From an uncultured bacterium (lineage in GTDB: Bacteria > Cyanobacteriota > Vampirovibrionia > Gastranaerophilales > Gastranaerophilaceae), in NCBI GenBank assembly GCA_949285255.1, contig CASDXV010000014.1, positions 23,214 through 67,463 of the forward strand: a DNA stretch of 44,250 nt, read 5' to 3'. The notes beneath the pieces were generated by a model. That model did not search any database and was not told where the DNA came from. It saw only the letters and a program-made list of their open reading frames with translations. Position numbers and translations under genes: made by a program. The stretch's first letter is position 1, and each line of letters opens with the position of its first letter. Below are positions 8,149 to 36,470 of this stretch, one piece after another.

Positions 8149-8155
8149 AATTTAA

Positions 8156-8184
8156 ATTCTATTACAAGGGTAAAATTTACGCAA
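8156..8184 (-). promoter_or_regulatory. Promoter of glyQ, predicted leaderless
   Basis: On the minus strand TTGCGT (complement of 8179-8184), a 17-base spacer and TAGAAT (complement of 8156-8161) precede the glyQ ATG by seven bases. The predicted start is at or next to the ATG. Confidence 0.55.
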
Positions 8185-8204
8185 ATAAAAAATACATAAA
8201 GATG

Positions 8205-8235
8205 TTGATGTACATAGTTTTTAAAATGTTATAAT
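8205..8235 (+). promoter_or_regulatory. Extended -10 promoter of the hexapeptide transferase gene, predicted leaderless
   Basis: TGTTATAAT at 8227-8235 is a perfect extended -10 element. TTGATG at 8205-8210 is a -35-like sequence at a long 19-base spacing. Only six bases separate the -10 from the ATG at 8242, and no Shine-Dalgarno is present. Confidence 0.65.
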
Positions 8236-8241
8236 CTCAAA

Positions 8242-8904
8242 ATGGAAAATACGTTAAATACCGTTGTCAAAGGTGAAAATAACAATATATACTTGATTAA
8301 AGAAGGTGTAATAATTCCCTACAGTACTCTTGAGGGTTTATATATTGATATAAAGGGAAATAATAATACAGTTGAAATTGAGCTGCCATCAAACTTTAAA
8401 TCAACACACATTACTATAGCTGGTGACAATAATTTTATCTCTATAGCAAAAACAGGTCACAGATACATAAGAAAAACAACATTTGGTTTGGCTAACGGCG
8501 GAAAAATAACAGTAGGTTCAGGACTTTCAGTTTACAGAGATTTAAATGTGGTTGCAAAAAACACAAAATCCGTTCATATAGGTAATGAGTGTATGATAGC
8601 AAGAGAAGTCGTTATAAGAAATGATGACGCTCATGTTATGTTTGATAAAAACACGGGTGAGTTGATAAATCCTCCTGATGATATTTATATCGGGAACAAT
8701 GTTTGGATTGCTATGCGCTCGCTTATTTTAAAGGGTGCAAAAATTTCAGATGGCTCTGTTGTTGGTGCTATGTCTTTGGTAAATAAAAAATTTGAAGAAG
8801 AAAACATTGTGCTTGCAGGTGTTCCTGCAAGAAAAATAAGGGATAATGTATCTTGGAAAAGAATGGATTATAATGACTATCTGAATCTAAATCCTGATAT
8901 TTAA
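8242..8904 (+). CDS. Hexapeptide-repeat (left-handed beta-helix) acyltransferase
   Basis: A 220-residue soluble protein. The C-terminal half (about 95-205) has the isoleucine-rich hexapeptide pattern of left-handed beta-helix O-acetyltransferases (WbbJ/maltose O-acetyltransferase type), including IGNNVWIAMRSLILKGAKIS, GSVVGAMSLV and the closing GVPARKIR. A histidine in the DDAHVM stretch, near residue 130, could be the catalytic one. The first 90 residues also look like beta-helix coils. Such enzymes acetylate sugars of surface polysaccharides or small molecules. The acceptor is unknown and no glycan cluster is adjacent. The gene is monocistronic, divergent from glyQ, and predicted to be translated from a leaderless mRNA. 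Confidence 0.85.
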   Translation: MENTLNTVVKGENNNIYLIKEGVIIPYSTLEGLYIDIKGNNNTVEIELPSNFKSTHITIAGDNNFISIAKTGHRYIRKTTFGLANGGKITVGSGLSVYRDLNVVAKNTKSVHIGNECMIAREVVIRNDDAHVMFDKNTGELINPPDDIYIGNNVWIAMRSLILKGAKISDGSVVGAMSLVNKKFEEENIVLAGVPARKIRDNVSWKRMDYNDYLNLNPDI

Positions 8905-8906
8905 TA

Positions 8907-8933
8907 AATAAGCCCTCTTTAAGAGGGCTTATT
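8907..8933. terminator. Bidirectional terminator hairpin
   Basis: A nearly perfect 27-base palindrome: 8907-8919 pair with 8921-8933 (the core is AGCCCTCT with its complement). It fills the gap between two convergent genes and is flanked by T/A-rich sequence on both sides. Confidence 0.85.
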
Positions 8934-8934
8934 A

Positions 8935-9969
8935 TTAAAAGTTTTTGTTATCGTAGTCAATTCTTCCGATTAGTTTGTTTAATTTTTTGGATACTTCTTT
9001 GAATTGTTCAATGCTCAAGCTTTGAGCACCGTCAGATGAAGCATGGTCGGGGTCGTGGTGAACTTCTATCATAAGACCGTGCGCTCCTGCTATTAGAGCG
9101 GCTTTACCCATTGGTTCTATTAAGTAGCGTTTACCTGTACCATGAGATGGGTCAACAATTATCGGCAAGTGTGAGTATTTTCTTATAATAGGAACTGCCG
9201 CAATATCAAGAGTGTTTCTTGTATAGTCATTATCTATGCCCTTAATACCTCTTTCGCATAGAATTACATTTGGATTGCCGTTATAAACAACATATTCTGC
9301 TGCAAGTAGAAATTCTCTTATGGTTGCCGCTGCACCTCTTTTAATCATAACGGGCTTATCTATTTTACCTAGTGCTTTTAGCATTTTGAAGTTTTGCATA
9401 TTTCTTGCACCAACTTGCAGAATATCAGCGTATTTTGATACAAGAGGGATATCCATGGTATCCATAATTTCTGTTACAACAAGAAGTCCTGTTTCTTTTC
9501 TTGCTTGAGCAAGGTATTCTAAGCCTTTTTCTTCTAAGCCTTGAAAGTCGTAGGGTGAAGTTCTGGGTTTAAAAGCACCGCCTCTTAAAAACTGGCAGCC
9601 CATTTCTTTTGCGGCTTTTGCAACTTTAAGAAGCCCTTCGTAGTCTTTTTCAACGCTGCAAGGTCCCACCATTAATACAGGGCGCTCAAGTCCGCCGATT
9701 TTTACTCCGTTTTTAAAAGTAATTATAGTGTCTTCTTCTTTTGTGCTTCTTGAAACAAGTTTGTAGGGTTCTTGAACTAATTTTACCTCATGAACGCCTT
9801 CAATTGAGTTGATATTTGATTGGCTGAGTTTTGTTTTATCTCCTAAAACTGCAACAACAGTCAGGTGCTCACCCCTGTTAATATTAACTCTTAAACCTTT
9901 TGACTGAATATAGTCGACAACCTTGTTGATTTGTGCCTCGGTTGCTTTTGGTTCCATAATGACAATCAT
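8935..9969 (-). CDS. aroF: 3-deoxy-7-phosphoheptulonate (DAHP) synthase, type I-beta
   Basis: A 344-residue enzyme that condenses phosphoenolpyruvate and erythrose 4-phosphate, the entry step of the shikimate pathway. The first ~75 residues form the ferredoxin-like regulatory domain seen in the Thermotoga AroF type. The barrel follows with [48 protein letters not shown] and the C-terminal [15 protein letters not shown]. In this class the N-terminal domain mediates feedback inhibition by tyrosine or phenylalanine; here that is inference. The start has a GGAG Shine-Dalgarno seven bases upstream. aroB, aroK and aroC lie 16 kb away in the window in a separate operon. Confidence 0.95.
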
Positions 9970-10000
9970 GTTTATACTCCAACTTAATGCTATTACTGAA

Positions 10001-10054
10001 AAACATTAAAGCACAAAAACCTCACTTTGGTGAATTTTTGTGCTTTAAATGTTT
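10001..10054 (-). terminator. Long intrinsic terminator after the 302-residue membrane protein gene
   Basis: A long inverted repeat: 10001-10007 pair with 10048-10054, 10008-10019 pair with 10035-10046 (one bulged A), and TCAC at 10022-10025 pairs with 10030-10033 at the tip. On the minus strand the stem is followed by TTTTT-rich sequence, as expected for a terminator of the gene ending at 10072. Confidence 0.8.
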
Positions 10055-10071
10055 ATAAAACTTAGTATTTA

Positions 10072-10980
10072 TTAATCTTTATCGTCGTCTTTATCGTCGT
10101 CATCGTCGTCATTGTCGTTGTCGACTTTTGTTTTTACTTCTTTGTCGTCGTCATCTTTTTCTGTAGGGGTTACGTTTTCTGTTTTTTCTGACGGTTTATT
10201 TTCTTGCGTTTTATTTTCTTTAGTTTCTTCCTCAGGTTTGGCTTTGCCTGTCTTTTCTTTTATCATTTTTACAATTTTTCCTGCAACAGGAACCATAAGA
10301 ACTGTTACAAGGAATCTTACCGTAAATGAGAAGATGGTTAGCGATTTCGCTTTTTCAACACGTTTTGTGTAATCTCTGAGGCCTTTTCTAAATTCTTTTG
10401 AATTAAGAATATCTCTGCCAAGTTCTTTTATACCGTCTTCACCTTTTTCTAAGACTTCGGGGGCTTTTTCTATTACCTTATCAAGAACTTGTTTACCTTT
10501 TTCCTGATAAAATGCGCCTTTTACCCTATCTAAGAATACGTCGCTTCCTTTATCGATAAGTGCCGCCATTGTTGAAGATACAGCTGTTACTGTAATGTTA
10601 TTAACCATAAGAGGCATTTTGCGCTCTTCTTCAATTTTTTCTGATTTTCTTGTGTTATTTACATAGAAAAATGTAATTGCAAAAGATGCCAAGTCTGCCA
10701 TTCTGGCTGACGGTTTTTTGAAGTGATTAAGTGCTTCTACACATTTTTTAGAAAAAGTTGTGTTTGAGGCTCTTCCTATTACATGGGCTATTCCATCCGT
10801 GATTTTATCATAAACTTTGCCCATTTCTTTGGCGTCTTTGCCGGCTTTTGGCAGAACATCTGCAAAAGATTCTTTTATTGATGAGTTGATTGTATCCAAA
10901 ACTTTCTGAGAGTATTTAGATTCCATACCCTTAAAGTTTGTTTTGTTATTTTTGTATTGATTAACAGGAGTTATTTTCAT
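10072..10980 (-). CDS. Unknown membrane protein with NFKG motif and acidic tail (paralog of the upstream gene)
   Basis: A 302-residue protein of no recognised family. It begins MKITPVNQ, with NFKG at residues 15-18, a short N-terminal signature that recurs in unknown proteins of this type of organism. It has hydrophobic stretches near residues 98-112 and 130-145, a long charged helical part, and a third hydrophobic stretch (FSFTVRFLVTVLMVPVAG) near 225. It ends in a lysine/glutamate-rich and then aspartate-rich tail (DDDDDKDDDKD). The layout of two hydrophobic segments split by an acidic loop, a helical region and one last segment matches the upstream gene, so the two look like divergent paralogs. 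It overlaps that gene by four bases (ATGA). Confidence 0.75.
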   Translation of the reverse strand: MKITPVNQYKNNKTNFKGMESKYSQKVLDTINSSIKESFADVLPKAGKDAKEMGKVYDKITDGIAHVIGRASNTTFSKKCVEALNHFKKPSARMADLASFAITFFYVNNTRKSEKIEEERKMPLMVNNITVTAVSSTMAALIDKGSDVFLDRVKGAFYQEKGKQVLDKVIEKAPEVLEKGEDGIKELGRDILNSKEFRKGLRDYTKRVEKAKSLTIFSFTVRFLVTVLMVPVAGKIVKMIKEKTGKAKPEEETKENKTQENKPSEKTENVTPTEKDDDDKEVKTKVDNDNDDDDDDKDDDKD

Positions 10981-11846
10981 TTTACTATACCTCCCGTAAA
11001 TTGCTTAAATACTTGTTCACTTTCATTTAATTGTATTTGTCCTATGGGTTGAGAATTGCCTTTTTTTGCAGCTTCCTCTTTTGCTTTATTTCTTTTGCCA
11101 AATAGTGCGTTTAATAAATAGGGCATAAATGTTATAGTGATTTTTGCTTTTGTCGGTGTAATTCCAAGGTCTGCAACTTTTTTGTAGAAAGTTGAATACG
11201 CATCAGCCAAGTATCCGCCCATAATGTCTTTGCCATCTTTTGTCTTGCCGACAACAATATCTTCCCATTTAGGGTCGATTAATTTGGCATATTCAGGATT
11301 TATTTTAAATTTTGACATATCTTTGGTTACTTTTTTAACACTTTTTGAAATCGGTGTAAGTATCAATGAAGATAATACAAAGCCTGCAACAGCCGCTACA
11401 AAGTTTTTAGTTGCTGCCATTTGCTTGTCTTCTTCTTCAGCCCCTGGCATGGCAAGTACACATATTGGTTTTAGAAGGCCTGCAAGAAATATTGTAATAA
11501 TGTTTTCAAATAAAGCTTCGTTATCTTTAACAAGTTTTAAGGTATGATTTACCTTGTCGCTTTTTATAAAGTTTACTGCCCACTGAGGAGCATCTTTAAC
11601 TCCTCTAAAATCTTTACCCCCCTCTTCTATAAGTTCCTTGAGGGCTGATTTTATAATTTTTTGGGTATCTAAACTTGCAGACCCGCTAAAGTTTACACTT
11701 TTAGCGGGTCTGTTTTTGTATAAGTTTTTATCTGTGTTTTTATGCTCAGAAATATTCTCTGCTTTTTTAAATGCTCTGCTTTTTGTGCGTTGCATATGAG
11801 GCGACGAATTAAAATTTAAATGTGATGTTAAATGCTCAATTCTCAT
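10977..11846 (-). CDS. Unknown membrane protein with NFSG motif (paralog of the downstream gene)
   Basis: A 289-residue protein of no recognised family. A polar, basic N-terminal segment of about 50 residues ends in NFSG (52-55). Two hydrophobic segments (around 112-127 and 140-160) are separated by an acidic loop (GAEEEDKQ). A helical soluble part and a final hydrophobic stretch near 245-260 followed by basic residues complete it. No signal peptide is seen. The codons for the NFSG region form a 13-pair hairpin in DNA (11678-11712). The gene starts with ATG at 11846, has no Shine-Dalgarno, and has a -10 box six bases upstream, so it is predicted leaderless. It is co-transcribed with the downstream paralog. 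Confidence 0.75.
   Translation of the reverse strand: MRIEHLTSHLNFNSSPHMQRTKSRAFKKAENISEHKNTDKNLYKNRPAKSVNFSGSASLDTQKIIKSALKELIEEGGKDFRGVKDAPQWAVNFIKSDKVNHTLKLVKDNEALFENIITIFLAGLLKPICVLAMPGAEEEDKQMAATKNFVAAVAGFVLSSLILTPISKSVKKVTKDMSKFKINPEYAKLIDPKWEDIVVGKTKDGKDIMGGYLADAYSTFYKKVADLGITPTKAKITITFMPYLLNALFGKRNKAKEEAAKKGNSQPIGQIQLNESEQVFKQFTGGIVK
11678..11717 (+). other. 13-bp perfect hairpin with T-run inside a coding region
   Basis: CAGACCCGCTAAA at 11678-11690 is the exact complement of 11700-11712, with a nine-base loop, and TTTTT follows on the plus strand at 11713-11717. In form it is an intrinsic terminator on the plus strand, but it lies antisense within the 289-residue protein gene, over the codons for the RPAKSVNFSG part. 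It may stop antisense transcription, or be a small palindromic element carried in frame. Confidence 0.6.
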
Positions 11847-11852
11847 GGTACT

Positions 11853-11858
11853 AGTATA
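11853..11858 (-). promoter_or_regulatory. -10 box of the membrane protein pair, predicted leaderless
   Basis: On the minus strand TATACT (complement of 11853-11858) ends six bases before the ATG at 11846. No Shine-Dalgarno and no strong -35 are seen. A second short inverted repeat (11893-11899 with 11903-11909) lies upstream, right after the gshB-like stop codon. Confidence 0.5.
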
Positions 11859-11909
11859 AAGCGAAAAAATTTTTTTCTTTGCTATAGTATATCATTTGTT
11901 TTACAAATG

Positions 11910-12899
11910 TTAACAATTACTGAAAACGCTTTCTCTGTGAGGGTTTATAAAATTATAAACATGTTGTTCCAGCTTATCTGCTATTATTTTTTCAAGATTA
12001 ATTCCATAAAGTGAGTTAATTTCTTTTATAAAAAAGCATGGGCTTGTGATGTTAATTTCAATAATTTTTGCTCCTATTGTGTCAAGTCCTGCCATTATTA
12101 CACCGTCGCTAAGTAGTTTTTTTGAAATTACATTTTCTATCGTTTTTTCTTCTTTTGTGATTGAACCAAGTTTTAAATTTGCATCACAGTGTTCGTTAAA
12201 TTTAAAATCGTCATTTGTTGCAACTTTTTGTACACAGTATTCAAGGATTTCTCCGCAAATGAATATCAATCTTTTATCCCCGTTTTTAATTTCGGGCAGA
12301 TATTCTTGAACCATAACGGTTGTTTTGCCGTTATCGGTTGCGGTATTTATTATTGTATTTGTGTTTTTATCCCCATAATAAAGATAAAACACCCCGCTTG
12401 AAAAACAGCGATTAAGCGGTTTTATTATTATTTCTTTGTTTTCTTTTAAAAATTCTCTTATAAACTTGACATCCGATGTAACAATGTTTTTTGGCGCAAG
12501 AGAGGGGAAGTCGTTTATATATAGTTTTTCATTTTTGTTTCTTATGGCATCAGGCGAATTTAGAACAAGAGTTTTTTTAGGATTAACCATACTTAAAATA
12601 TAAGTTGCATTAATGTAGTTAATATCAACAGGCGGGTCGGGGCGGAAAAACACTGTATCAAACTCTTCAAGAGGTGTATTTATAAGTTCATTTGACTTAT
12701 AGAGTTCATTATCTTTAAATACTGTTTTTGTACAGAAACAATGCGGTTTTGCCTCAAAAACATTTAACATATTTTTTGTTGCAACATAAACAATGTGGCT
12801 GCGTTTTAAAAATTCAACATTTAGCCAAAAATTGGTTACAAGTTTGTTGAATTCAAAATATTTAAACTCTAGTTCATCTATTATAAAAAGTATTTTCAT
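11910..12899 (-). CDS. gshB: Divergent glutathione synthetase-like ATP-grasp protein
   Basis: A 329-residue ATP-grasp enzyme matching prokaryotic glutathione synthetase over its full length: FFRPDPPVDINYINATYIL near 84-102, NSPDAIRNKNEKLY near 114, EYLPEIKNGDKRLIFICGE, AGLDTIGAKIIEINITSP and the C-terminal ligand-binding parts. GshB joins gamma-glutamylcysteine and glycine. Two conserved loops differ: the glycine-rich loop after the ATP-binding lysine (normally KPLDGMGG) reads KPLNRCFSSG at 160-169, and the usual RGNLAAGG reads DANLKLGS. Substrate or activity may therefore have changed. No gshA is nearby. A -10 box seven bases before the ATG and no Shine-Dalgarno suggest a leaderless mRNA. 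Confidence 0.8.
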   Translation of the reverse strand: MKILFIIDELEFKYFEFNKLVTNFWLNVEFLKRSHIVYVATKNMLNVFEAKPHCFCTKTVFKDNELYKSNELINTPLEEFDTVFFRPDPPVDINYINATYILSMVNPKKTLVLNSPDAIRNKNEKLYINDFPSLAPKNIVTSDVKFIREFLKENKEIIIKPLNRCFSSGVFYLYYGDKNTNTIINTATDNGKTTVMVQEYLPEIKNGDKRLIFICGEILEYCVQKVATNDDFKFNEHCDANLKLGSITKEEKTIENVISKKLLSDGVIMAGLDTIGAKIIEINITSPCFFIKEINSLYGINLEKIIADKLEQHVYNFINPHRESVFSNC

Positions 12900-12906
12900 A
12901 TTACAA

Positions 12907-12912
12907 ATTATA
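12907..12912 (-). promoter_or_regulatory. -10 box of the gshB-like gene, predicted leaderless
   Basis: TATAAT on the minus strand (complement of 12907-12912) ends seven bases before the ATG at 12899. The region is very AT-rich and shared with the divergent promoter for 12968. No clear -35. Confidence 0.55.
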
Positions 12913-12954
12913 TAATAAACAAAACGTACGATTTTAAATTAAACAATTATATAG

Positions 12955-12960
12955 TATAAT
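12955..12960 (+). promoter_or_regulatory. -10 box of the eleven-gene plus-strand run, predicted leaderless
   Basis: TATAAT at 12955-12960 ends seven bases before the ATG at 12968. There is no Shine-Dalgarno. Transcription from here would enter the microprotein gene and the genes behind it. Confidence 0.55.
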
Positions 12961-12967
12961 CCTGACT

Positions 12968-13177
12968 ATGAAAAAATGTCCTTTCAATAATGACGGTTGT
13001 TCTATAGAGTGTGCTTTGTTTATCTCAAAAGATGAGTTAAACGAGCTTGTTGTAAACAGGTTGAAAGCAATTGGCGTTTTTAATGATGATGAGGGTGGTA
13101 TATGCTCTCTTAAGTCTGTTGCTCTTGCACAATCAAGGTACATTTTTGAAAATACTTCCGTATATAACAAAAAATAA
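12968..13177 (+). CDS. Cysteine-rich microprotein
   Basis: A 69-residue protein, MKKCPF...C...CALF type: cysteines at residues 4, 11, 15 and 46. The N-terminal CPFNNDGCSIECALF pattern is reminiscent of small Cys-motif proteins scattered through gut bacteria and phages, and could bind a metal. The middle is helical and charged. I do not recognise a function. It is the first gene of the plus-strand run, 11 bases before a TPR gene that has its own Shine-Dalgarno. The start is fixed by a -10 box seven bases upstream and the lack of any other ATG before the motif. Confidence 0.7.
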   Translation: MKKCPFNNDGCSIECALFISKDELNELVVNRLKAIGVFNDDEGGICSLKSVALAQSRYIFENTSVYNKK

Positions 13178-13188
13178 GAGAGATAAAA

Positions 13189-14229
13189 ATGCACAAAGAA
13201 ATTTTAATCAAAGATTTAAAAGAAAAAATAGTAAATGCGCCTGAGTGTGACGAAAACTACAGGGCTCTTGCAAATATTTACGTAGCAGATGAAGACTATG
13301 AAAACGCACTTGATGTTTATGTAAAGCTTTTGGAGAAATTTCCGCAGGATGTGCAAGCACTTATAAATACGGGAAGTATTTATTTTTATAAAAAGGAATA
13401 CGAAAAAGCTATAGAAAATTACCTTAAGGCAAATAAAATTGACCCCTCTTCCTTTGCGGTAAATTACAATCTCGGAAATGTTTACGCTGAAATAGGCAGT
13501 TTTGCAAATGCGCTAAGGTATTATAATAACGCTCTTGAAATAAAGCCTGAGTCAGCCGATGTTTATAACGCTATTGGTTTTCTTCATCAGGATAATGAGG
13601 ATTATCAGGAAGCAAGAAGGTATTATCAAAAAGCGATTGATTTAGATTCTGAATGTGCAGAATACGAGATAAATCTGGCTAATGTTTATCAAAAAATTAA
13701 CGAGTTTGAGCTTGCTTCAAAACACTATAAAATTGCCTACGATATGGACAATTCAGACAAAAAAGCATGCCTTTGCTTAGCAAACGCATATGCTTCAATG
13801 GAGAACTTCGATGAGGCTGCAAAATATTTTGAAAGAACAACTCAAATTGACCCTAACTATTACGCTGCTTGGGTTTGCTGGGCAATAGCAGTTGCTGATT
13901 CAGGGGATTTAGACAGAGCCATTATGCTTTTTAAACACGCTATAGAGTTGGATGTGTCTAAGCCAAACGCTTATCTTCTTTTGGCTAACATTTTAATCGG
14001 TGAAAAACGCTACCCTGAAGCAATTTCGCTTTATGAAAGCGCTTTAAAACTTGCAGTTGATAAGACAAAAATATATGTCCTTATGGCAAATGCCTATATG
14101 ATGCTTGATGATATTAAAAATGCTGCTAAATACTATAGGTTTGCTATGAAAGAAGACCCTGATAACCTTGAAATTAAGCTTATATATATTGATGTTGCAA
14201 ATAACTTTATAATGAAAAAGGTGGCATAA
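13189..14229 (+). CDS. TPR-repeat protein
   Basis: A 346-residue protein made almost wholly of tandem tetratricopeptide repeats (about nine), with the usual pattern of small residues and A-x-x-x-Y/F-x-x-A-I/L spacing, for instance YEKAIENYLKANKIDPSSF and FANALRYYNNALEIKPESAD. No signal peptide or membrane segment, so it is probably a cytosolic protein-protein interaction scaffold; the partner is unknown. An AGAGAGA Shine-Dalgarno precedes the ATG. Its stop codon overlaps the next ATG by one base, so it is translationally coupled to the Tic20-like membrane protein, which may be its partner. Confidence 0.9.
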   Translation: MHKEILIKDLKEKIVNAPECDENYRALANIYVADEDYENALDVYVKLLEKFPQDVQALINTGSIYFYKKEYEKAIENYLKANKIDPSSFAVNYNLGNVYAEIGSFANALRYYNNALEIKPESADVYNAIGFLHQDNEDYQEARRYYQKAIDLDSECAEYEINLANVYQKINEFELASKHYKIAYDMDNSDKKACLCLANAYASMENFDEAAKYFERTTQIDPNYYAAWVCWAIAVADSGDLDRAIMLFKHAIELDVSKPNAYLLLANILIGEKRYPEAISLYESALKLAVDKTKIYVLMANAYMMLDDIKNAAKYYRFAMKEDPDNLEIKLIYIDVANNFIMKKVA

Positions 14230-14645
14230 TGCGCTCGGGCGGTATCGGAGTTCAATTAATTGAGCGCATTATAAGCGCATTGTCATACCTTACCTTTGGT
14301 ATGGCGGGTGTCGTGTGGATTATTGTTTGTTATGTAACCAAAAATCAAATGTCATCTTTTTGTTCATATAACATATACCAGTCAATATTTTTTGCGGTAT
14401 TTGTCTATATTCTCTCGCTTTTCTGCTCAATTGTAATGGGGCTCTTAAGCGCAGTCCCTTTTTTAGGTAAATTAATCAATGATTTTGCAATGTTTTTTGC
14501 AGGTACTCCGATTTATTTTGGTTACTCGCTCTGGGGTCTTATAATATTTTTGGTAATCTGCTACCTTGCAATATTTTCTTTCTTTGGAAGATACCCGTAT
14601 TTACCTTTTATTTCAGATGTTATAGGTTCAAATTTTAGGAGATAA
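14229..14645 (+). CDS. Tic20-like four-helix membrane protein
   Basis: A 138-residue integral membrane protein with about four hydrophobic segments. The pattern fits the Tic20 family known from chloroplast inner envelopes and cyanobacteria: RIISALSYL at the start, FCSYNIYQSIFFAV in the place of the family's FIRFNTMQAIL stretch, and a C-terminal GRYPYLPFISDVIGSNFRR in the place of GKYPEIPIISDAV. The first part is shorter than in cyanobacterial members. Tic20 forms part of a protein import channel in plastids; the bacterial role is not established. It overlaps the preceding TPR gene by one base. Its last codons contain the Shine-Dalgarno of the next gene. The family call rests on remembered motifs, so it is moderate. 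Confidence 0.55.
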   Translation: MRSGGIGVQLIERIISALSYLTFGMAGVVWIIVCYVTKNQMSSFCSYNIYQSIFFAVFVYILSLFCSIVMGLLSAVPFLGKLINDFAMFFAGTPIYFGYSLWGLIIFLVICYLAIFSFFGRYPYLPFISDVIGSNFRR

Positions 14646-14649
14646 AAAA

Positions 14650-16437: not shown

Positions 16438-16443
16438 TAAAAT
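16415..16443 (+). promoter_or_regulatory. Internal promoter before the 570-residue TPR gene, predicted leaderless
   Basis: TTGATA at 16415-16420, a 17-base spacer and TAAAAT at 16438-16443 make the best-spaced promoter in the window. The -10 ends seven bases before the ATG at 16451. The -35 lies inside the end of the phosphatase gene. Confidence 0.7.
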
Positions 16444-16450
16444 TATTTTA

Positions 16451-18163
16451 ATGCTTAAGTTTTTTCAAAAAATAGCAAAACAGGTAAATAAGTTTAACAC
16501 TATAGTTAATGACTATAAGGCTGCAGGGAAAGAGGTTTCTCTGCCCTCACATGCTTATGTGAACTGGGGTATGCAGCTTGCGCAGGAGGGTAACACTAAA
16601 GAGGCGCTTGAGAAGTTTGAGCTGAGTGCAAATATGGTTAACTCTACTCCCGATGCCTATGTTAACCTTGGTATAATGTGCGCTAAAAAAGCTGATTTTA
16701 CTCAAGCTATTGAATTTTTTAAAAAAGCTATAAGGATAGATGACACCTGTGCTAAAGCCTGGGCGCTTTTAGGCAGCGCTTACGGTGAAACAGATAATAT
16801 AAAAGAAGCTAAAAGGGCTTTTAAGCTTTCTTTAAAATACGACTCGAGAAGCTTTCAAACATATTTAAATCAAGGAATATTTTTTGCTAAAATCGGCGAA
16901 GTTGAAAATGCGCTAAACAGTTTTAAAAATGCCTACGCTTTTAACCCGCAAGAGCCTCAGAGTGTGTTTTTGTCAGGTATTTTATATTCTCAGATGAGAG
17001 ATTTTGAAGAGGCGATAAGAAAATTTAAACTCGTTATCTCAATCTCGCCTTTTCACTCAGAAGCTCTTTATCACCTTGCTTTTTGCTACTATCAGGTTCA
17101 AAATTTTGAACTTGCGCTAAACTTTGCCAAGAAATCAAAGAGCGCAAGCCCTACAAAAATAGAAAACTATATAATAATAGCTGAAAGCTATATGGCACAA
17201 AAAGACAAAGACGAGTGCTTTAAAACTTACGAGGAAGCAAAAAAAGCAGGACTTGTTTCCTATCAGCTTTTATATTCAAATGCCGTTGCTTATCAGGCTT
17301 TTGATATGTGGCAAGAAGCTATAGATATTCTAAAGAAAGCAATTGAGCTTGATAGCAGTAACTTTGCCGCTTATTATGCTCTATCTCTTTCGTATTTAAA
17401 ACTTGATTTAAGAGAGGAAGCATATGGGGCGCTTAAGCGCACACTGGAGCTAAATCCTAACCATACGGTTTCTATGTTTAATTTAGGGCAACTGTATTTA
17501 AAAGATTCAAGATTTGATGAGGCAATTGAATGTTACAAAAACGCTATAGCTCATGACGCCAAGCTTACGCATATGTATTTTAATATTGCAAATGCTTATC
17601 ATCTGAAGGGTGATGTGCATAAGGCGATAAAATACTGGGAAAAAACCGCTGAGTACGATGATAAAAACACGGGCGCTCTTTTAAATCTTGCAAATGCATA
17701 TTCTCAAATAGGCGATAGCGCACTTGCTCTAAGGAAAGCAAGAAGTGCTTATATGCTTGATAAGAAAAACCCCGATGTCATTATGGCGTACGCTATAATA
17801 CTTCTAAAAGAAAACAATATTTATGATGCAAGAGAAAAATTTGAAGAAGTGCTTGAGGTTAATCCTGACTTTCTTTCTGCAAAATTTGCGCTTATTGAAT
17901 GTATGATAAAAACTAATAAGCCAAAAGAGGCAATGAATGAGCTTGAAAAATACAAAGAAACTCACGGTGATAAAAAAGAATTTATGATGTTAAACCTCCT
18001 TGCTTATCTGAAAATTGAAGAAATGGAGCAAAATAATTATTTGCTTGACCAAATAATTGAGGTTTGTGATAAGATATTAAGTACTCACGGGGAAGATTCG
18101 TGGGTTCAAAAAGTAAAGGATGAATATCAAAAGAAGCACGACAACAAAGATAGTGAAGGTTAA
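16451..18163 (+). CDS. Large TPR-repeat protein
   Basis: A 570-residue protein with about thirteen to fourteen tetratricopeptide repeats, such as PDAYVNLGIMCAKKADFTQA and FDEAIECYKNAIAHDAKL. The first ~30 residues are not repeat-like; there is no signal peptide. It is probably a cytosolic scaffold. The gene has no Shine-Dalgarno and its own promoter with a -10 seven bases before the ATG, so it can be made separately from the genes in front. It is three bases from lysC, so read-through into lysC, the LdpA-like gene, tilS and hpt is likely. The partner is unknown. Confidence 0.9.
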   Translation: MLKFFQKIAKQVNKFNTIVNDYKAAGKEVSLPSHAYVNWGMQLAQEGNTKEALEKFELSANMVNSTPDAYVNLGIMCAKKADFTQAIEFFKKAIRIDDTCAKAWALLGSAYGETDNIKEAKRAFKLSLKYDSRSFQTYLNQGIFFAKIGEVENALNSFKNAYAFNPQEPQSVFLSGILYSQMRDFEEAIRKFKLVISISPFHSEALYHLAFCYYQVQNFELALNFAKKSKSASPTKIENYIIIAESYMAQKDKDECFKTYEEAKKAGLVSYQLLYSNAVAYQAFDMWQEAIDILKKAIELDSSNFAAYYALSLSYLKLDLREEAYGALKRTLELNPNHTVSMFNLGQLYLKDSRFDEAIECYKNAIAHDAKLTHMYFNIANAYHLKGDVHKAIKYWEKTAEYDDKNTGALLNLANAYSQIGDSALALRKARSAYMLDKKNPDVIMAYAIILLKENNIYDAREKFEEVLEVNPDFLSAKFALIECMIKTNKPKEAMNELEKYKETHGDKKEFMMLNLLAYLKIEEMEQNNYLLDQIIEVCDKILSTHGEDSWVQKVKDEYQKKHDNKDSEG

Positions 18164-18166
18164 AAA

Positions 18167-21622: not shown

Positions 21623-21624
21623 AT

Positions 21625-23257: not shown

Positions 23258-23260
23258 TTG

Positions 23261-23809: not shown

Positions 23810-23815
23810 TTGTTT

Positions 23816-23941: not shown

Positions 23942-24162
23942 TTTAAATATCCTCTTTTTTACATATATTATGCAATAAGCATAAGAATTTCACAAAATAT
24001 TTTAACAAAAATTTATATCCCATGCTTGAAATTTAATAGAATTTTATTAAATTATTATTGTTGCTCCATATATTTCGGTCGTTTGTATGAACACTATAAA
24101 ATACTCTTCTTCTATACTATTAATGGGAGTATCAGGTTTCAAGATAAAATCGGGGATATACT
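23942..24162. other. Divergent AT-rich intergenic region
   Basis: This 221-base gap separates the microprotein/spmAB operon from the TPR gene at 24163. TATACT at 24113-24118 is a possible plus-strand -10 for the TPR gene, and GGGGA at 24152-24156 is its Shine-Dalgarno. No RNA gene, terminator or repeat stands out. An ATG at 24087 opens a 30-codon frame but has no ribosome site. Confidence 0.4.
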
Positions 24163-28365: not shown

Positions 28366-28374
28366 TTTCTCTCC

Positions 28375-30268: not shown

Positions 30269-30837
30269 AGGGCACTTTCTTTCTCATAGATTTGCTGCAG
30301 CTGATTAAAAGCTTCATCCACTTTGTCGTTTACAATTAAGTATTTATAATTTTTAGACTCTTCAAGCTCTCTTTTAACCGCTTCAAGGCGCTTTTGAATG
30401 GCATCTTCTGTTTCTGTTTTTCTGCCTCTAAGGCGTTTTTCAAGTTCGTCTAAATTTGGCGGAGTTATAAAAATCGACACACACTCGGGGTATTTTTCCA
30501 TAACTTTTTTAGCACCCTGTGCTTCTATTTCTAAAACTACGCTTTTACCTTCGTTTAGGCACTTTAGAACAAAACTTTTTTTTGTACCGTAGTAATTATC
30601 AGAATACTTTGCCCACTCGAGAAAATCGCCGTTTTCTATTTCTCTTTCAAATTCTTCTTTTGTTATAAAAAAATAATTTACCCCGTCTTTTTCCTGAGGT
30701 CTTGGGGTGCGAGTGGTAGCAGATATTGAGTAGATAATATTACCTTTGTTGTGTTCAAAAAATTTATTCAAAACAGTCCCCTTGCCGACGCCTGAGGGAC
30801 CTGTTATCACATACAACCTTGCTTTATTTTCTTTCAT
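30265..30837 (-). CDS. gmk: Guanylate kinase
   Basis: A 190-residue kinase converting GMP to GDP. It shows the P-loop GPSGVGKGTV, the GMP-binding SISATTRTPRPQEKDGVNYFF and the lid region RGRKTETEDAIQKRL. A TTG at 30855 opens a longer frame, but the ATG at 30837 fits the family. There is no Shine-Dalgarno. TATAAT on this strand ends six bases before the ATG, so this first gene of a six-gene operon is predicted leaderless. gmk followed by coaBC is a common order in bacteria (often with rpoZ between, absent here). Confidence 0.96.
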   Translation of the reverse strand: MKENKARLYVITGPSGVGKGTVLNKFFEHNKGNIIYSISATTRTPRPQEKDGVNYFFITKEEFEREIENGDFLEWAKYSDNYYGTKKSFVLKCLNEGKSVVLEIEAQGAKKVMEKYPECVSIFITPPNLDELEKRLRGRKTETEDAIQKRLEAVKRELEESKNYKYLIVNDKVDEAFNQLQQIYEKESAL

Positions 30838-30843
30838 AGACGC

Positions 30844-30849
30844 ATTATA
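30844..30849 (-). promoter_or_regulatory. -10 box of the gmk-coaBC-nif3-aroCKB operon, predicted leaderless
   Basis: TATAAT (complement of 30844-30849) ends six bases before the gmk ATG. The terminator of the upstream gene lies about 20 bases further, so the promoter is squeezed between the two. Confidence 0.6.
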
Positions 30850-30865
30850 CAACAATATTGCGCAT

Positions 30866-30892
30866 AAAAAAAGCGGTTTTAAACCGCTTTTT
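30866..30892 (-). terminator. Intrinsic terminator of the LysM/EF-hand genes
   Basis: GCGGTTT at 30873-30879 pairs with 30881-30887, extended by flanking A/T pairs. On the minus strand the stem is followed by seven T residues. The hairpin includes the stop codon of the gene ending at 30891. Confidence 0.85.
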
Positions 30893-31640
30893 AGAATTTA
30901 TCTTTTGTCATTTTGTTCGGGTCTGTGAGTTGCGCATTTGATATCATACCATCGATTGTTTTATCCATTTTATCAAATGCTTCAAACATATCTTCTACTT
31001 CATCAGAATCCAGGACAGAGTTGCCGTTAGCATCCATTTTATCAAATGCTTCTCTGAAACGGTCTTCATTTTCAGAAAGTATTTGTTGTTCACTTGAAGT
31101 TATTCCTTGAGTATACCAGTTTAAGAAAGCATCATAAGTAATACCGTTTCCATTACTTAGAGATTTAAACATACCGTTTGCAATGCTCTTTAGATTGTCT
31201 TGATAATTATCATCTTTGTTGAAATCAAAACTTTTTCCGCCGATAGATGACAATGCTTCATCAAGTGCTTCTTGGTCACCGTTCTTTTCATAATTTTCCA
31301 TGGCTTCTGCGTAGGCTTTTCTCCATTTTTCAAATTCTTCAAATATTTTGCTGTTATTTTCTTTGAAGTCGTTTCCTTGTGCCCCTTGCTCACTGTCAGC
31401 AGGAGTTACGCTGGCTGTTGCCACTTGATTATTATTTACATTGCCTTGTGTAGTGCCTGATGATTGGAATGTATCACCCGGAAGTTTTAGATTTTTACCA
31501 GTAAAAATCAAATTAGGGTTTTCGATATTATTTAATTGAGCAATTTCATTAATTGTTTTTTGGATATCATTACCTGTTGCACCGCATTGTTCGGTTGCAA
31601 TTTTCCAGAGTGTGTCGCCGCTTTGAATGGTGTAGCTCAT
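30891..31640 (-). CDS. LysM domain protein with C-terminal EF-hand
   Basis: A 249-residue protein. It begins directly with a LysM domain (SYTIQSGDTLWKIATEQ, to LKLPG at about residue 54), a module that usually binds peptidoglycan or chitin, yet there is no signal peptide before it. A serine/glutamine-rich linker and a helical part follow. A canonical EF-hand loop, DANGNSVLDSDE, lies near residue 198, and the protein ends in MTKDKF. The C-terminal ~55 residues align with the end of the 223-residue protein upstream. GAGG precedes the ATG. Role unknown; calcium-dependent wall binding is possible if it is exported by another route. Confidence 0.85.
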   Translation of the reverse strand: MSYTIQSGDTLWKIATEQCGATGNDIQKTINEIAQLNNIENPNLIFTGKNLKLPGDTFQSSGTTQGNVNNNQVATASVTPADSEQGAQGNDFKENNSKIFEEFEKWRKAYAEAMENYEKNGDQEALDEALSSIGGKSFDFNKDDNYQDNLKSIANGMFKSLSNGNGITYDAFLNWYTQGITSSEQQILSENEDRFREAFDKMDANGNSVLDSDEVEDMFEAFDKMDKTIDGMISNAQLTDPNKMTKDKF

Positions 31641-31670
31641 ATTTGCCTCGCAATTTTGTTTTATATACCT

Positions 31671-31699
31671 ATTATATAAAACGTAATTTTTTGAGCCAA
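31671..31699 (-). promoter_or_regulatory. Promoter of the LysM/EF-hand gene
   Basis: On the minus strand TTGGCT (complement of 31694-31699), a 17-base spacer and TATAAT (complement of 31671-31676). A transcript would start near 31664 and keep the GAGG Shine-Dalgarno, so this gene has a short leader, unlike the leaderless ones. Confidence 0.65.
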
Positions 31700-31775
31700 T
31701 CTTCAGTAAAATTGCTTTTTTGTTACAAAACTTAACCGTATTTGCAATATAACTTAATATTTAAAAATCTGTTTT

Positions 31776-32447
31776 TTATTCTTCTTCTTTGTTAAGATAC
31801 GCTTGAAATTCTTGGATATTTCTTTTAAATTTATCTGAGGTTAAATCTGTACCGATTGAGTTCATATCTATTTGTCCGTCAACCGCTCCATCTGCGTTAT
31901 CTAATGCTGCATAAAAGCCTTGCAGTTCATTTTTTTCCAATACGCCGTCGCCATCAACATCTATTGCCTCAAATGATTTTTGAGCATAAGCGCTTGCTGC
32001 ACTGTATTCTTCTTCTTCCATATTTTCTAAATCAGGTGAGCCAAGTTGAGCATTTGTGTATTCTTCAAGACTTATACCGTCTTCGCCGTCTGTTTCCCAG
32101 GCTTCCATATCACCTTGGGCAAGTTTGCCTGTTTGTTCAACATACGCTGGGACAAAAGTTTCGGCATCGCTCGGGTCATAATCTCCTTCCATGAAGTTAA
32201 ATTTTTGTCCTGCTTCTTTTTCGCCTTTAAGATAGTCAAGTTGTGCTTCAAGTTGTTGTATTTCTAAATCATTAAGTTTAGAAGATATGTCGCTTTTTTC
32301 TGTTCTGCTCAGGCTGCCTTGGAGTTTTTCTGATATTTCATTGAGTTGTTTTTCAATATTATCCATAGCACTTGAATATGTATTCATATTTTCGCCGTGT
32401 TTATTTAACCAAGCTTGCATTTGCCCGTAAACGCCGTTTGTTGACAT
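31776..32447 (-). CDS. EF-hand protein
   Basis: A 223-residue, highly acidic protein with no signal peptide or membrane segment. Residues about 15-80 are predicted coiled-coil (MDNIEKQLNEISEKLQG onwards). A weak EF-hand-like loop (ETDGEDGISLEE) lies near 117, and a canonical one, DVDGDGVLEKNE, near 163, followed by a degenerate ADGAVDGQID. The C-terminal part through LTSDKF matches the LysM/EF-hand neighbour, so the two are paralogs in this region. AGAGGA precedes the ATG by eight bases. The function is unknown; calcium binding is likely. Confidence 0.8.
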   Translation of the reverse strand: MSTNGVYGQMQAWLNKHGENMNTYSSAMDNIEKQLNEISEKLQGSLSRTEKSDISSKLNDLEIQQLEAQLDYLKGEKEAGQKFNFMEGDYDPSDAETFVPAYVEQTGKLAQGDMEAWETDGEDGISLEEYTNAQLGSPDLENMEEEEYSAASAYAQKSFEAIDVDGDGVLEKNELQGFYAALDNADGAVDGQIDMNSIGTDLTSDKFKRNIQEFQAYLNKEEE

Positions 32448-32532
32448 GATAAAATCCTCTCTCTTTAGATTCTTATAACTTTATAAAAATTTTTTAAGAG
32501 ATAATATTGATATTTTGTAAACAAATATTAAA

Positions 32533-32554
32533 AAACGGGTCATATGACCCGTTT
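32533..32554 (-). terminator. Intrinsic terminator after rpoD
   Basis: A perfect 22-base palindrome: 32533-32542 (AAACGGGTCA) with 32545-32554. On the minus strand it is followed by a run of T. It closes the dgt-dnaG-rpoD operon just after the rpoD stop at 32561. Confidence 0.88.
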
Positions 32555-32560
32555 GAATTT

Positions 32561-33634
32561 TTAAACTTCAATGTATTCTTTAAGTCTTTTTGAACGGTTG
32601 GGGTGTCTTAGTTTTCTAAGTGCTTTTGCTTCAATTTGTCTTATACGTTCACGAGTTACGCCAAAGAGCTGTCCTACTTCTTCTAATGTTCTTTGTCTGC
32701 CATCATCCATACCGAAACGCAGTCTTAGAACATCTCTTTCACGAGCGGAAAGACTGCCTAAAACTTCAGCTAAATCTTCCCTTAAAAGTTCGTGCGCTAC
32801 AGTTTTAACAGGTGCATCAGCGTCTTTATCTTCAATAAAATCACCAAGGCGAGAATCTTCTTCTTTACCTATAGGAGTTTCAAGAGAAAGAGGTTCTTGA
32901 GCTACCTTAATAATTTCTCTTAATTTATTGATAGATATACCCATCTCAACCGATAATTCTTCTTCGGTGGGTTTTCTTGCTAATTCTTGAGCGAGTTTTC
33001 TTGTAACTTTTTTAAGTTTATTAATTGTTTCAACCATATGCACAGGGATTCTTATTGTTCTTGCCTGGTCGGCAATAGCACGGGTTATAGCTTGTCTAAT
33101 CCACCAAGTTGCATAGGTAGAAAATTTATAACCTCTTTCGTGGTCAAATTTTTCCGCAGCACGAATAAGACCCAAGTTACCTTCTTGAATAAGGTCTAAA
33201 AAGAGCATGCCGCGACCAACGTATTTTTTTGCAATAGAAACCACAAGGCGCAAGTTTGCCTGTACAAGTTTTCTTTTTGCTACAGCACCTTGATTTCCGC
33301 CTGCAACAATTTTTCTCGCCAAGTCTATTTCTTCATCAGCTGTAAGAAGTTTTATTCTTCCGATTTCTCTTAAATACATTCTGACGGGGTCATCAACAGA
33401 TATGCCTCTTGGAGGAGTGATATCGCCGTCTTGCGAGTCCTCATCGTCTTCTTTATCATAGAATCCGCCTGTCAAGTTGGCATCAATTGTGCTCACACCA
33501 TGACTGCTTATAATGTTGCTGATATTATCCGTTTCAAGTCCTGCAGTGTCAAAATAGTTATCATCTGCAATCATGTCGGTATTTTTATCAACTACGCTTA
33601 TAACTGAATCATCGGAACTTTTTTTTCTGCTCAT
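32561..33634 (-). CDS. rpoD: Primary RNA polymerase sigma factor (RpoD/SigA)
   Basis: A 357-residue sigma-70 group 1 factor. After a short acidic N-terminus come region 1.2 ([16 protein letters not shown]), region 2 with [24 protein letters not shown] and [19 protein letters not shown] (the -10 recognition helix), region 3 and region 4 with [15 protein letters not shown] and [21 protein letters not shown] (the -35 helix). A full region 1.1 is missing or very diverged, as in other short SigA proteins. The ATG overlaps the dnaG stop by one base. The dnaG-rpoD order is widely conserved. Confidence 0.97.
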
Positions 33635-35517
33635 TAAGGTGTCTCCATTCTGTTTGCTTCAAATTGTTTGAAAAGTATTTTAAGCTTTTCGTCTTCACTC
33701 AGGCTCTTGTCTTTTATTTTTTGCCTTAATTCGTGTTTTTTAAGCTTATTATCTATGTTGTTAAGCCTTTCAAAAGTTTCATTAACGGCTTGTATATAAT
33801 TTTCATAGTTAAGATTCTCATATTCTGTTGATGAAAAAATTTCATCCGATAGTTTTTGTTGAATGTCAGTACTGTTGTAAAACTCGCAAAAAAGTTTTTT
33901 TGCTAGTTCATCAATATTATTTACTTCACGAAGTGCGTTGTCAATAGATGTAATAATCTTAAGATTAGCTTCGTTTTTGGGTTTATAGGTGCTTATTGCA
34001 TGTGAATAAAAATTTCTTTTTTCAGGTGTGTTTGCAACAAAAGCAAGTTTTATAAGATTATTTTCCATTAATGTATATCGTGTGTTTAGGTCTTTTGCTG
34101 CACGGTTTGAAGTTTTTTGTACATTTTGTGATATATCAACTTCTCCCTGAGGCAGCATGGCTTTTCTTTTTGCTTTTTGTACTTGATTTTTTAATATCTC
34201 TTCATCAATGTTAATTTTATATGAAGTGTTTCTAATGTAATCGGATAAAATAACAGGATTTTGAATTTCAGATAAAATATCAGCTATCTGTTGTACTACT
34301 TCACTTTTTTCCTGCGGGGTTATATCATCTTTTATATCTTTTAGTGTCTTATCCAGTCTGTAATCAAGAAACAACGGGGCGTTTTGTATGTGCTTTTTGT
34401 ACTCTTGTGCTCCAAATTCTCTTATAAATTCATCAGGGTCTTTGCCGCCAACCTGAGATACAACGTGAATTTCGCAAACCGAGTCACTATTTTCACTGTA
34501 ACTTGAATCGTACTGTTTAATATCGCCAAGACTTGAGAATATGTTTTTTATAACTTCAGCTCCCGCTTTTGTTGCTTTTTGACCTGCACTATCAGAATCA
34601 AAGGCAAGATAGATTTTTCTTGAGGGACTGTATCTTGCAATAAGTTTTATATGCTGCGGGGTAAGAGCGGTACCGCAGGAAGCTACTGCGTTTTGAACTC
34701 CTGCACAGTGGGCGGATATTACATCAAAATACCCCTCCATAATTACAACTGAGTCTTCCTGTTTTATGTAGTCTTTTGCACGATTTAGACCAAAGAGCAC
34801 AGAGCTTTTATTGTATATAGATGAATCAGGCGAGTTAAGGTATTTTGGATTTTGTCCGTCCATAATCGCGCGTGCGCCAAAAGCTATTGTATTTGAGTTT
34901 ACATCCATAATGGGGATAATAATTCTGTTTTTAAACCTGTCTAAGAAATCTCCGTTTTTTTCATACAAAAGACCTGCTTTATACATTTCATCGTTTGTAT
35001 ATTTTTTCTCTCTTAAATATTCTTTAAGTTCAAAATTGGAATTTGGTGCAAGTCCTAAGAAAAATTTACCTATCGCAACTTCTCCGACCCCTCTTTTTTC
35101 AAGGTATTCAAGAGCACGGTCGTTTTTTAAAAGATTGTTATGATAAAACTTCATAGCTTCATCCATCGCACCGAGAAGTCTTTCTTTTTCTTCTTTGTAT
35201 TTAGATGAGTCTTTAGAAGATTTGGGCAGCTCAATTCCTAAGGCTGCAGCTTGCTCTTCTATTACTTCTTTAAAGTTTTGATTGTTTATTTTCATAAGGA
35301 AAGCAAGAACATCTCCGCCCTCTCCGCAGCCAAAGCATTTAAAAATTTGACGTGACGGAGTAACGACAAAAGAAGGTGTCTTTTCGTTGTGAAACGGGCA
35401 CAAGCCGCTGTAGTTGTGACCTGCTTTTTTTAATACGACATATTTTGAAATCACATCTACAATATCAAGGCTGTTTTTTATTTGTTCTACTGCCTGGCTG
35501 TAAGTTATTTCCGACAT
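33634..35517 (-). CDS. dnaG: DNA primase
   Basis: A 627-residue replicative primase. The N-terminal CHC2 zinc-binding domain has C40, H43, C61 and C64 ([11 protein letters not shown] and KCFGCGEGG). The catalytic core follows with FGLAPNSNF-type and [21 protein letters not shown] stretches and the TOPRIM motifs [10 protein letters not shown] and [14 protein letters not shown]. The C-terminal ~180 residues are the helical helicase-binding part. An AAGGA Shine-Dalgarno precedes the ATG, which overlaps the end of dgt by 13 bases. It is coupled to rpoD behind it. Confidence 0.97.
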
Positions 35518-36455
35518 ATTTCCTTATGGGTTACAATGGCAAACTGGTCGCTCATGCCTGCAACATAGTCAATTGCACCTTGTTCACCGTAAAGATTTTT
35601 GTAATACTCAAACAATTCTGAAACTATCTTTTTGATTTTGTTTTCTTCCTGCTTTGTTTTATCACTAAAATAAACATTTTTAAACATCCAGCTCCTTAAA
35701 TTGTTTAAAAAGTTTACACAAAGCTCGGACATTTTTATCTCACTCTGCCCGACACTGTTTAAGTAAATGTCTTTAATAACCGTATTTATACGCTCAAATT
35801 TTGTGTTACCAAGATAATTTTGAAACTCCTCCGGGATGTCATTGTATGTAATGACCTCTTCTCTTATGGCATCTTCTATATCGTGGTTTAAATATGCAAT
35901 TCTATCTGCTATTTTTACAATTTGCCCTTCAAGGGTAAAAGGTTTTCCGATTCCCGTGTGGTTTAAAATCCCATCAAGCGTTTCTTTTGTAAGGTTTAGA
36001 CCCTCAATCACTTCAACTACTCTAACACCGTGAACATTGTGCTTAAAGCCGTTTTTTGTAGCTTCCATTAAAGCTTCTTCACCGCTGTGACCAAAAGGCG
36101 CATGCCCTAAGTCATGCCCCAGAGCAATGGCTTCTGTTAAATCTTCATTCAGGTTAAGGGCGTTTGCAAGAGTTCTTGAAATTTGTGACACTTCAAGCGT
36201 GTGAGTAAGACGTGTTCTTAGGTGGTCATTTTTAGGCGTGTAAAATACTTGAGTTTTTCTTTTTAGCCGCCTGAACGCTTTTGAGTTAATAATTCTGTCT
36301 TTATCTGTTTGAAATTCCGTTCTAAAAGGGTCTATGTCGTTTTCTTCTTTGTTTCTGCCTTTTGAATTTATCGATTTCTGTGCAAAGCTACTTAGGGTCT
36401 CTTCCCTTTTATAGAGCAGTTCTTTAATGTTTTTTAAGTCGGAAGTGTGATGCAT
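35505..36455 (-). CDS. dgt: Deoxyguanosinetriphosphate triphosphohydrolase-like protein (dGTPase)
   Basis: A 316-residue HD-domain nucleotide hydrolase of the bacterial dGTPase-like type. Seen are DRIINSKAFRRLKRKTQVF, HLRTRLTHTLEVSQISRTLA with the first metal histidine, ALGHDLGHAPFGHSGEEAL (the HD motif) and VKIADRIAYLNHDIEDA. It hydrolyses dNTPs to nucleoside and triphosphate. Length fits the short form. It is the first gene of dgt-dnaG-rpoD, an order also seen in Firmicutes relatives. No Shine-Dalgarno; a -10 box six bases before the ATG predicts a leaderless mRNA. Confidence 0.94.
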   Translation of the reverse strand: MHHTSDLKNIKELLYKREETLSSFAQKSINSKGRNKEENDIDPFRTEFQTDKDRIINSKAFRRLKRKTQVFYTPKNDHLRTRLTHTLEVSQISRTLANALNLNEDLTEAIALGHDLGHAPFGHSGEEALMEATKNGFKHNVHGVRVVEVIEGLNLTKETLDGILNHTGIGKPFTLEGQIVKIADRIAYLNHDIEDAIREEVITYNDIPEEFQNYLGNTKFERINTVIKDIYLNSVGQSEIKMSELCVNFLNNLRSWMFKNVYFSDKTKQEENKIKKIVSELFEYYKNLYGEQGAIDYVAGMSDQFAIVTHKEICRK

Positions 36456-36461
36456 AGTGAA

Positions 36462-36470
36462 ATTTTAACA
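36462..36470 (-). promoter_or_regulatory. Extended -10 of the dgt-dnaG-rpoD operon, predicted leaderless
   Basis: On the minus strand TGTTAAAAT (complement of 36462-36470) is an extended -10; its end is six bases from the dgt ATG. No strong -35 is seen. Confidence 0.55.

Follow-up and report, generated by a model that had tools for sequence, protein, structure and literature searches.

Start-codon-proximal promoters and probable leaderless transcription of part of the first genes in Gastranaerophilales

Zheng et al. 2011 (PMC3160421) surveyed 953 genomes and detected leaderless genes of the "TA-led" type in 207; their paper describes many cyanobacterial genomes as having neither Shine-Dalgarno (SD)-led nor leaderless genes. 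Leaderless use has been predicted in 21.6% of bacterial species (PMC9581028). Here we examine eight genes in a 44,250-nucleotide stretch of DNA (hereafter the window; assembly GCA_949285255.1, contig CASDXV010000014.1, positions 23,214 to 67,463) from an uncultured bacterium of the family Gastranaerophilaceae, order Gastranaerophilales, phylum Cyanobacteriota. Gastranaerophilales are gut bacteria known almost solely from sequence, so that gene starts and promoters in them are guessed. The initial annotation of the window had noted that each of the eight genes has a -10 hexamer ending 6 or 7 bases before its ATG and no SD, and had taken this as a sign that the lineage uses leaderless mRNA. On re-reading, all eight hexamers were found at the positions given, with no SD match of at least 4 nt. 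Promoter geometry and conservation, as detailed below, make it very probable that part of the first genes of this genome are transcribed without a leader.

A spacing peak at promoter-proximal genes

The host genome comprises 1.6 Mb in 43 contigs. For gene-level counts, stretches totalling 400 kb were combined with the window into a sample of 444 kb (28% of the genome; 36% GC; 381 predicted genes), in which start codons were picked on coding score alone. We defined a site as a TAxxxT hexamer agreeing with TATAAT in at least five of six positions, with 6-7 bases between its end and the ATG, and divided genes into divergent first genes, those with a same-strand gap of at least 100 nt, those with a gap of 40-99 nt, and downstream genes; in-frame internal ATGs (n=2260) were the negative control. 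Divergent first genes had a site in 31 of 132 cases and downstream genes in 5 of 120, with intermediate classes at 4/65 (gap of at least 100 nt) and 7/46 (40-99 nt), and only 30 of the internal ATGs were preceded by one (Fisher test, first versus internal, 1.7e-24; first versus downstream, 8e-6). The test set beforehand for the leaderless proposal was that first genes, but not downstream ones, should peak at 6-7 bases across the genome; in this sample the outcome was positive. The same counts bear out the earlier judgement that a fixed spacing in unrelated genes is unlikely to arise by chance.

The peak is sharp. At first genes the counts for spacings 4 to 8 are 0, 0, 19, 12 and 2, over a background of about 2.7 per spacing at 8-30, and the first T of the hexamer lies at -12 or -13, matching spacings of 6 and 7. 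The lack of hexamers at 4-5 and the jump at 6 are expected if the ATG sits at or after the transcription start. After background, about 11% of all predicted genes carry a site, and by this measure the majority of first genes are not leaderless. The check in related genomes that had been proposed gave a weaker peak, which is nevertheless present: a sample from a second genome of the same genus had sites at 12/94 first and 3/124 downstream genes (2/52 with a gap of at least 100 nt, 7/48 with 40-99 nt), and the corresponding figures for 27 further contigs from the order were 13/120, 1/99, 2/52 and 1/41.

The hexamers at these positions have the company of a promoter. An extended TG element accompanies 16 of the 48 sites in the host, compared with 145 of 1709 -10-like hexamers lying within coding sequence, and a -35-like hexamer (at least 5/6) accompanies 8/48 compared with 34/1709; when three data sets from the family are pooled, TG is present at 35 of 88 sites and at none of 58 -10-like hexamers found 0-3 bases from the ATG. 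A T at position -1, which is expected for an initiator located at the ATG, occurs in the three data sets at 70%, 79% and 76% of sites; the corresponding shares are 49%, 37% and 43% for other first genes and 30%, 32% and 35% for the remaining downstream genes.

SD matches of at least 4 nt, in turn, are rare at the sites (4/48), more frequent at other first genes (46/101) and most frequent at other downstream genes (81/115), in line with the earlier statement that downstream operon genes mostly have them; overall they precede 68% of downstream and 35% of first genes, for shuffled expectations of 30% and 19%. Three 16S genes from the same order end with the normal anti-SD CCTCC, while a search of the host's own contigs for 16S found none. 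Those contigs encode one IF3 and two S1-like proteins (G000:C2:12605-13645 and G000:C5:27727-28722), each aligning to roughly two thirds of the model for rpsA and scoring below its cut-off. Two S1-like proteins are found in several relatives too. A-richness past the start codon differed little between sites (48%), other first genes (43%) and downstream genes (47%).

The eight sites and their conservation within the genus

For comparison, the region was retrieved from ten genomes of the same genus and 31 genes lying within window positions 7273-36455 were followed, 29 of them predicted and two (the membrane gene start and the Cys-rich open reading frame, ORF) set by hand; only orthologues aligning from within the first five residues were used, later-aligning ones being excluded. 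The eight flagged genes keep a -10 hexamer at 6-7 bases in 67 of 72 orthologues, and the other 23 genes, several of which have unreliable predicted starts, show the arrangement in 0 of 214. All 72 have an ATG at the aligned position. The start predictor had placed the start of the membrane gene 51 nt downstream and had left the Cys-rich ORF unpredicted, thus missing two of the eight, so these two rest on the conserved ATG.

Two sites lie close together near the start of the region. That of glyQ (8146-8161, minus strand) has TAGAAT at 8156-8161, 7 bases from the ATG at 8148-8146, and is kept at 6-7 in 10/10 orthologues. That of the hexapeptide acyltransferase gene (8230-8244, plus strand) has the extended -10 TGTTATAAT, with the hexamer TATAAT at 8230-8235 and a spacer of 6 before the ATG at 8242; only three orthologues were found among the ten same-genus stretches, and all three keep the spacing. 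Upstream of one gene of a membrane pair (11844-11858, minus strand), TATACT at 11853-11858 stands 6 bases from the ATG at 11846, an arrangement shared by 9/9 orthologues alignable up to the N-terminus (one more was excluded). The gshB-like gene (12897-12912, minus strand; TATAAT at 12907-12912, spacer 7, ATG at 12899) keeps 6-7 in 6/10, and the Cys-rich small ORF (12955-12970, plus strand; TATAAT at 12955-12960, spacer 7, ATG at 12968) in 10/10. The TPR gene (16438-16453, plus strand; TAAAAT at 16438-16443, spacer 7, ATG at 16451) keeps it in 9/10 and is the least certain of the eight, as its ATG lies 13 nt past the stop of the preceding same-strand gene and its -10 abuts that stop codon. For gmk (30835-30849, minus strand), TATAAT at 30844-30849 is 6 bases from the ATG at 30837 in the host and at 6-7 in 10/10 orthologues; the gene lies 53 nt behind a same-strand gene, after which the sequence reads as an inverted repeat followed by a T-run. 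Finally, dgt (36453-36467, minus strand) has the extended -10 TGTGTTAAAAT, hexamer TAAAAT at 36462-36467, spacer 6 and ATG at 36455; the arrangement is present in 10/10 orthologues of the ten-genome set, and the spacing is 6 bases at 14/14 same-genus loci.

Pfam matches support the names of six of these products (glyQ, hexapeptide transferase, glutathione-synthetase-like ATP-grasp, TPR, guanylate kinase and the HD-domain protein called dgt), beginning at residue 5 in glyQ and residue 6 in guanylate kinase; both proteins of the membrane pair and the Cys-rich ORF had no Pfam match. No SD match of even 3 nt precedes seven of the eight genes, dgt having AAG. Two extended -10 elements had been claimed, and a strict TGn is indeed found in the acyltransferase and dgt genes, with gmk having a TG that directly adjoins the hexamer. 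The claim of two -35 elements at exactly 17 bases held for the TPR gene (TTGATA, 5/6) but not for glyQ, where only TTGCGT (3/6) is present. The eight had also been described as first genes of transcripts, a status that is inferred for TPR and gmk because of the same-strand genes 13 nt and 53 nt upstream, and TPR is not clearly first.

To measure upstream identity, we set aside two near-identical genomes and any row that lacked a -10 at 6-7; the remaining eight genomes supplied 52 rows, in some of which the upstream DNA is shared or itself coding (gshB-like/Cys-rich, TPR). Among these rows selected for the site, the hexamer (98% identical) and the two TG bases (97%) are the most conserved, followed by base -1 (90%) and the -35 zone (84%); the remainder of the stretch between -35 and -10 reaches 72%, what is left of the spacer before the ATG 66%, and sequence farther upstream 65%. 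The spacer shortened from 7 to 6 in four rows and lengthened from 6 to 7 in six. Box, -1 base and spacer length are thus conserved while the spacer sequence drifts. Sites also coincide between genomes: among 84 reciprocal best pairs between sampled stretches of the host and of genome G160, five had a site in both, three in the host only, two in G160 only and 74 in neither (Fisher test, 3.6e-5).

Some of these promoters have further features. The block of about 40 bases before the membrane-pair ATG (11847-11890, minus strand; AGCAAAGA..TTTTTT..CTTTATACTAGTACC) is strongly conserved in the genus even in the usually variable spacer, where TTTATACTA[AG]TA[CT]CATG is found in 9/10 genomes; the protein itself is merely 53-64% identical in 8/10. 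The block was considered as the mark of a regulon and rejected, its core having one exact match and, with up to two mismatches, 44 matches versus 42 for the reversed pattern. In the divergent gshB-like/Cys-rich promoter (12900-12960), AAACGTACGATTTTAAA is exact in 7/10 same-genus genomes and could be an operator common to both genes. The Cys-rich ORF (12968-13177, 69 aa) is present in all ten genomes with 71-93% identity and with its promoter and start conserved, and is therefore probably a real small protein gene.

Proposed mechanism and alternative explanations

We propose that ordinary housekeeping-sigma promoters would place the transcription start on the first base of the ATG. With RNA polymerase starting 6-7 bases past the -10, the mRNA would open with AUG and have a leader of 0-1 nt; the ribosome would then initiate at this 5'-terminal AUG without SD pairing, and further genes of the same operon would retain their SD sites. 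Initiation on a 5'-terminal AUG is established for leaderless mRNAs elsewhere; here we infer both that step and the actual 5' end.

Several observations weigh against so simple a picture. Only about a fifth (roughly 23%) of divergent first genes qualify, and the peak is weaker in the 27 other contigs of the order, where 4 of 17 sites precede GTG. The rarity of SD at the sites is partly geometry, because the -10 hexamer occupies the place of an SD, and an SD-like match is present at 4/48 sites all the same. The 98% hexamer identity and the 6-7 limits are conditioned by the selection of rows, and the -35 zone is itself above background (84%). The gshB-like gene has a spacing of 10 in 4/10 same-genus orthologues, which corresponds to a leader of 3-4 nt, so zero leader is not strict. 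Outside the genus the arrangement is often absent from the very same genes: at 27 loci in further genomes of this order, glyQ, to which the host protein is 78-88% identical, has it before ATG in 0/27 (at two of them a -10 stands 6-7 bases from an alternative start, GTG or TTG), and dgt has it in 1/12, with one more at 8 bases and one before TTG.

Taken as a gauge of conservation across the order, glyQ had argued against leaderless transcription until the genus-level and genome-wide tests were made, and it was dropped for that purpose. The leaderless habit is stable per lineage and not per gene, single genes switching between genera; gain or loss would need merely small shifts of the promoter relative to the ATG. 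Within 80 nt upstream of glyQ, a palindromic element, GTGTA-N5-TACAAT, is found instead at 15 of these 27 loci from elsewhere in the order (L021-L046, L097). In one AT-rich genome lacking psbA (G047; L195, L196), glyQ was matched as two pieces with one in-frame TGA, perhaps through a frameshift in the assembly or because the gene is decaying.

Of the alternatives to leaderless transcription, the one that survives best, while still improbable, is that these promoters are secondary and the main transcripts begin further upstream with SD-less leaders. The position of gmk and TPR shortly behind same-strand genes speaks for it, but such longer leaders would lack an SD too, given that seven of the eight genes have no match of at least 3 nt, and no part of the upstream region is better conserved in the retained rows than hexamer and TG. 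A second alternative is that the AT-rich hexamer is no promoter but an S1-type translation enhancer in a longer leader. AT- or U-rich non-SD signals near -10, possibly S1 sites, are described for other phyla in PMC5397173, and the host has its two S1-like genes. Yet extended TG, -35-like hexamers and -1T are all enriched at the sites, an RNA element would need neither an upstream TG nor a spacing of 6-7 with none at 4-5 in first genes, and it should serve downstream genes equally, where the signal is rare; we consider this alternative very unlikely. Slightly less likely again is that the promoters are real but the true starts lie further inside the genes, leaders being normal and the ATGs misassigned: starts are predictions, and the simple predictor did displace that of the membrane gene, but all orthologues used align from residues 1-5 with an ATG in place, and the Pfam matches of glyQ and guanylate kinase begin at residues 5 and 6. 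Chance, by which TATAAT-like words would simply be frequent at 36% GC and matching genes would have been picked in the initial annotation, is scarcely credible, as exact TATAAT does occur 67 times in the genome at 9-10 bases before ATG but 120 times at 6-7, the first-gene peak falls at exactly that distance, and the genus retains it in 67/72 against 0/214.

Distribution in Cyanobacteriota and relation to known systems

To place the lineage in its phylum, we counted exact TATAAT followed by 6-7 bases and ATG in 292 genomes, with the same pattern at 9-10 bases (shifted by 3, so that reading-frame phase is preserved) as control; a reversed pattern was dropped as control since reversed matches exceeded forward ones in many photosynthetic genomes. 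All 130 genomes of the window's family have more matches at 6-7 (26018 vs 16815), as do 6/6 genomes from two further families within the order and class (782 vs 552). We call psbA-lacking those genomes not among the 135 with a psbA/psbD-type protein match (Pfam PF00124). Outside the class there are 21 further such genomes, of which 16 are above, 3 below and 2 tied (1373 vs 1021), three of the 21 belonging to otherwise psbA-bearing or single-genome families, so that the gene may be missing from the assembly. The excess is clear in families f6, f10, f13 and f14, and weak or absent in f4 (36 vs 31), f17 (586 vs 526) and f20 (2 vs 3). The 135 psbA-bearing genomes as a set have no overall excess (8231 vs 8410; 64 above, 63 below, 8 tied). 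Single psbA-bearing families vary in both directions (1.13 in f22, 1.87 on 89 counts in f28, 0.82 in f11), and small departures should therefore not be read. At gene level, the histogram of the one photosynthetic genome so treated (G187, 26 first genes) has no peak, and the samples from G214, G077, G044 and G010, which are small (14-22 first genes each), have at most one site each at 6-7.

The proposal that this lineage uses leaderless mRNA is hence supported, the excess extending to every genome of the family, but the initial annotation's word "systematic" was too strong for something seen at less than a quarter of divergent first genes. It looks like a lasting habit of the lineage, with photosynthetic cousins lacking such a genome-wide signature. 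One may speculate that the promoter at the ATG is the old state of Cyanobacteriota, kept by most non-photosynthetic branches and largely lost toward the oxygenic phototrophs, and, jointly with this, that the SD-poor leadered mRNAs of oxygenic phototrophs are the derived condition; we regard both as possible but doubtful, the phylum comparison being one of match counts, on which "ancestral" is an interpretation only.

Should a promoter at the ATG prove a lasting rule, it would allow annotated starts to be corrected and promoter-proximal genes to be recognized. It would also suggest that part of the proteome is made by a route spared by some drugs against leadered initiation, as leaderless mRNA translation is described to be (PMC9581028). 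Within the phylum, the contrast between psbA-lacking lineages, which mostly have the signature, and the psbA-bearing set, which does not, makes it directly testable how and when leaderless starts are lost.

The mechanism is already known in other bacteria. For the Gastranaerophilales lineage no earlier report was found, and a full-text literature search, covering few subscription journals and no preprints, returned none of leaderless genes for Melainabacteria, Gastranaerophilales or Vampirovibrio; the phylum-level contrast may be new. Photosynthetic cyanobacteria do have some mapped leaderless transcripts, although no excess of the pattern is seen over the psbA-bearing genomes as a whole: 19 leaderless transcription start sites (TSSs) of the gTSS class are given for S. 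elongatus UTEX 2973 (PMC6091082), transcripts with leaders of less than 9 nt and no ribosome-binding site for Synechocystis PCC 7338 (PMC8155712), and 6-8% of primary TSSs within 10 nt for Prochlorococcus MED4 (PMC5607370). Such transcripts, together with what is drawn from Nakagawa et al., weigh against a clean contrast across the phylum.

The closest described counterpart is the TA-led class. As outlined in PMC3160421, its genes have TANNNT about 12 bp before the start codon and no SD, distal operon genes usually need an SD, and a TG ahead of the -10 occurs in several low-GC genomes. The sites described here have the same -10 position, seldom an SD (partly a matter of geometry) and the same concentration at promoter-proximal genes with SD in distal ones. 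They differ in their phylum, Cyanobacteria being absent from the groups listed for TA-led genes in that paper. The comparison with the GeneMarkS-2 scheme (Lomsadze 2018, as summarized in PMC9581028) is similar: it uses Cyanobacteria to exemplify a weak upstream pattern of unknown mechanism, unlike what we find in Gastranaerophilales, whose habit fits the scheme's bacterial leaderless class.

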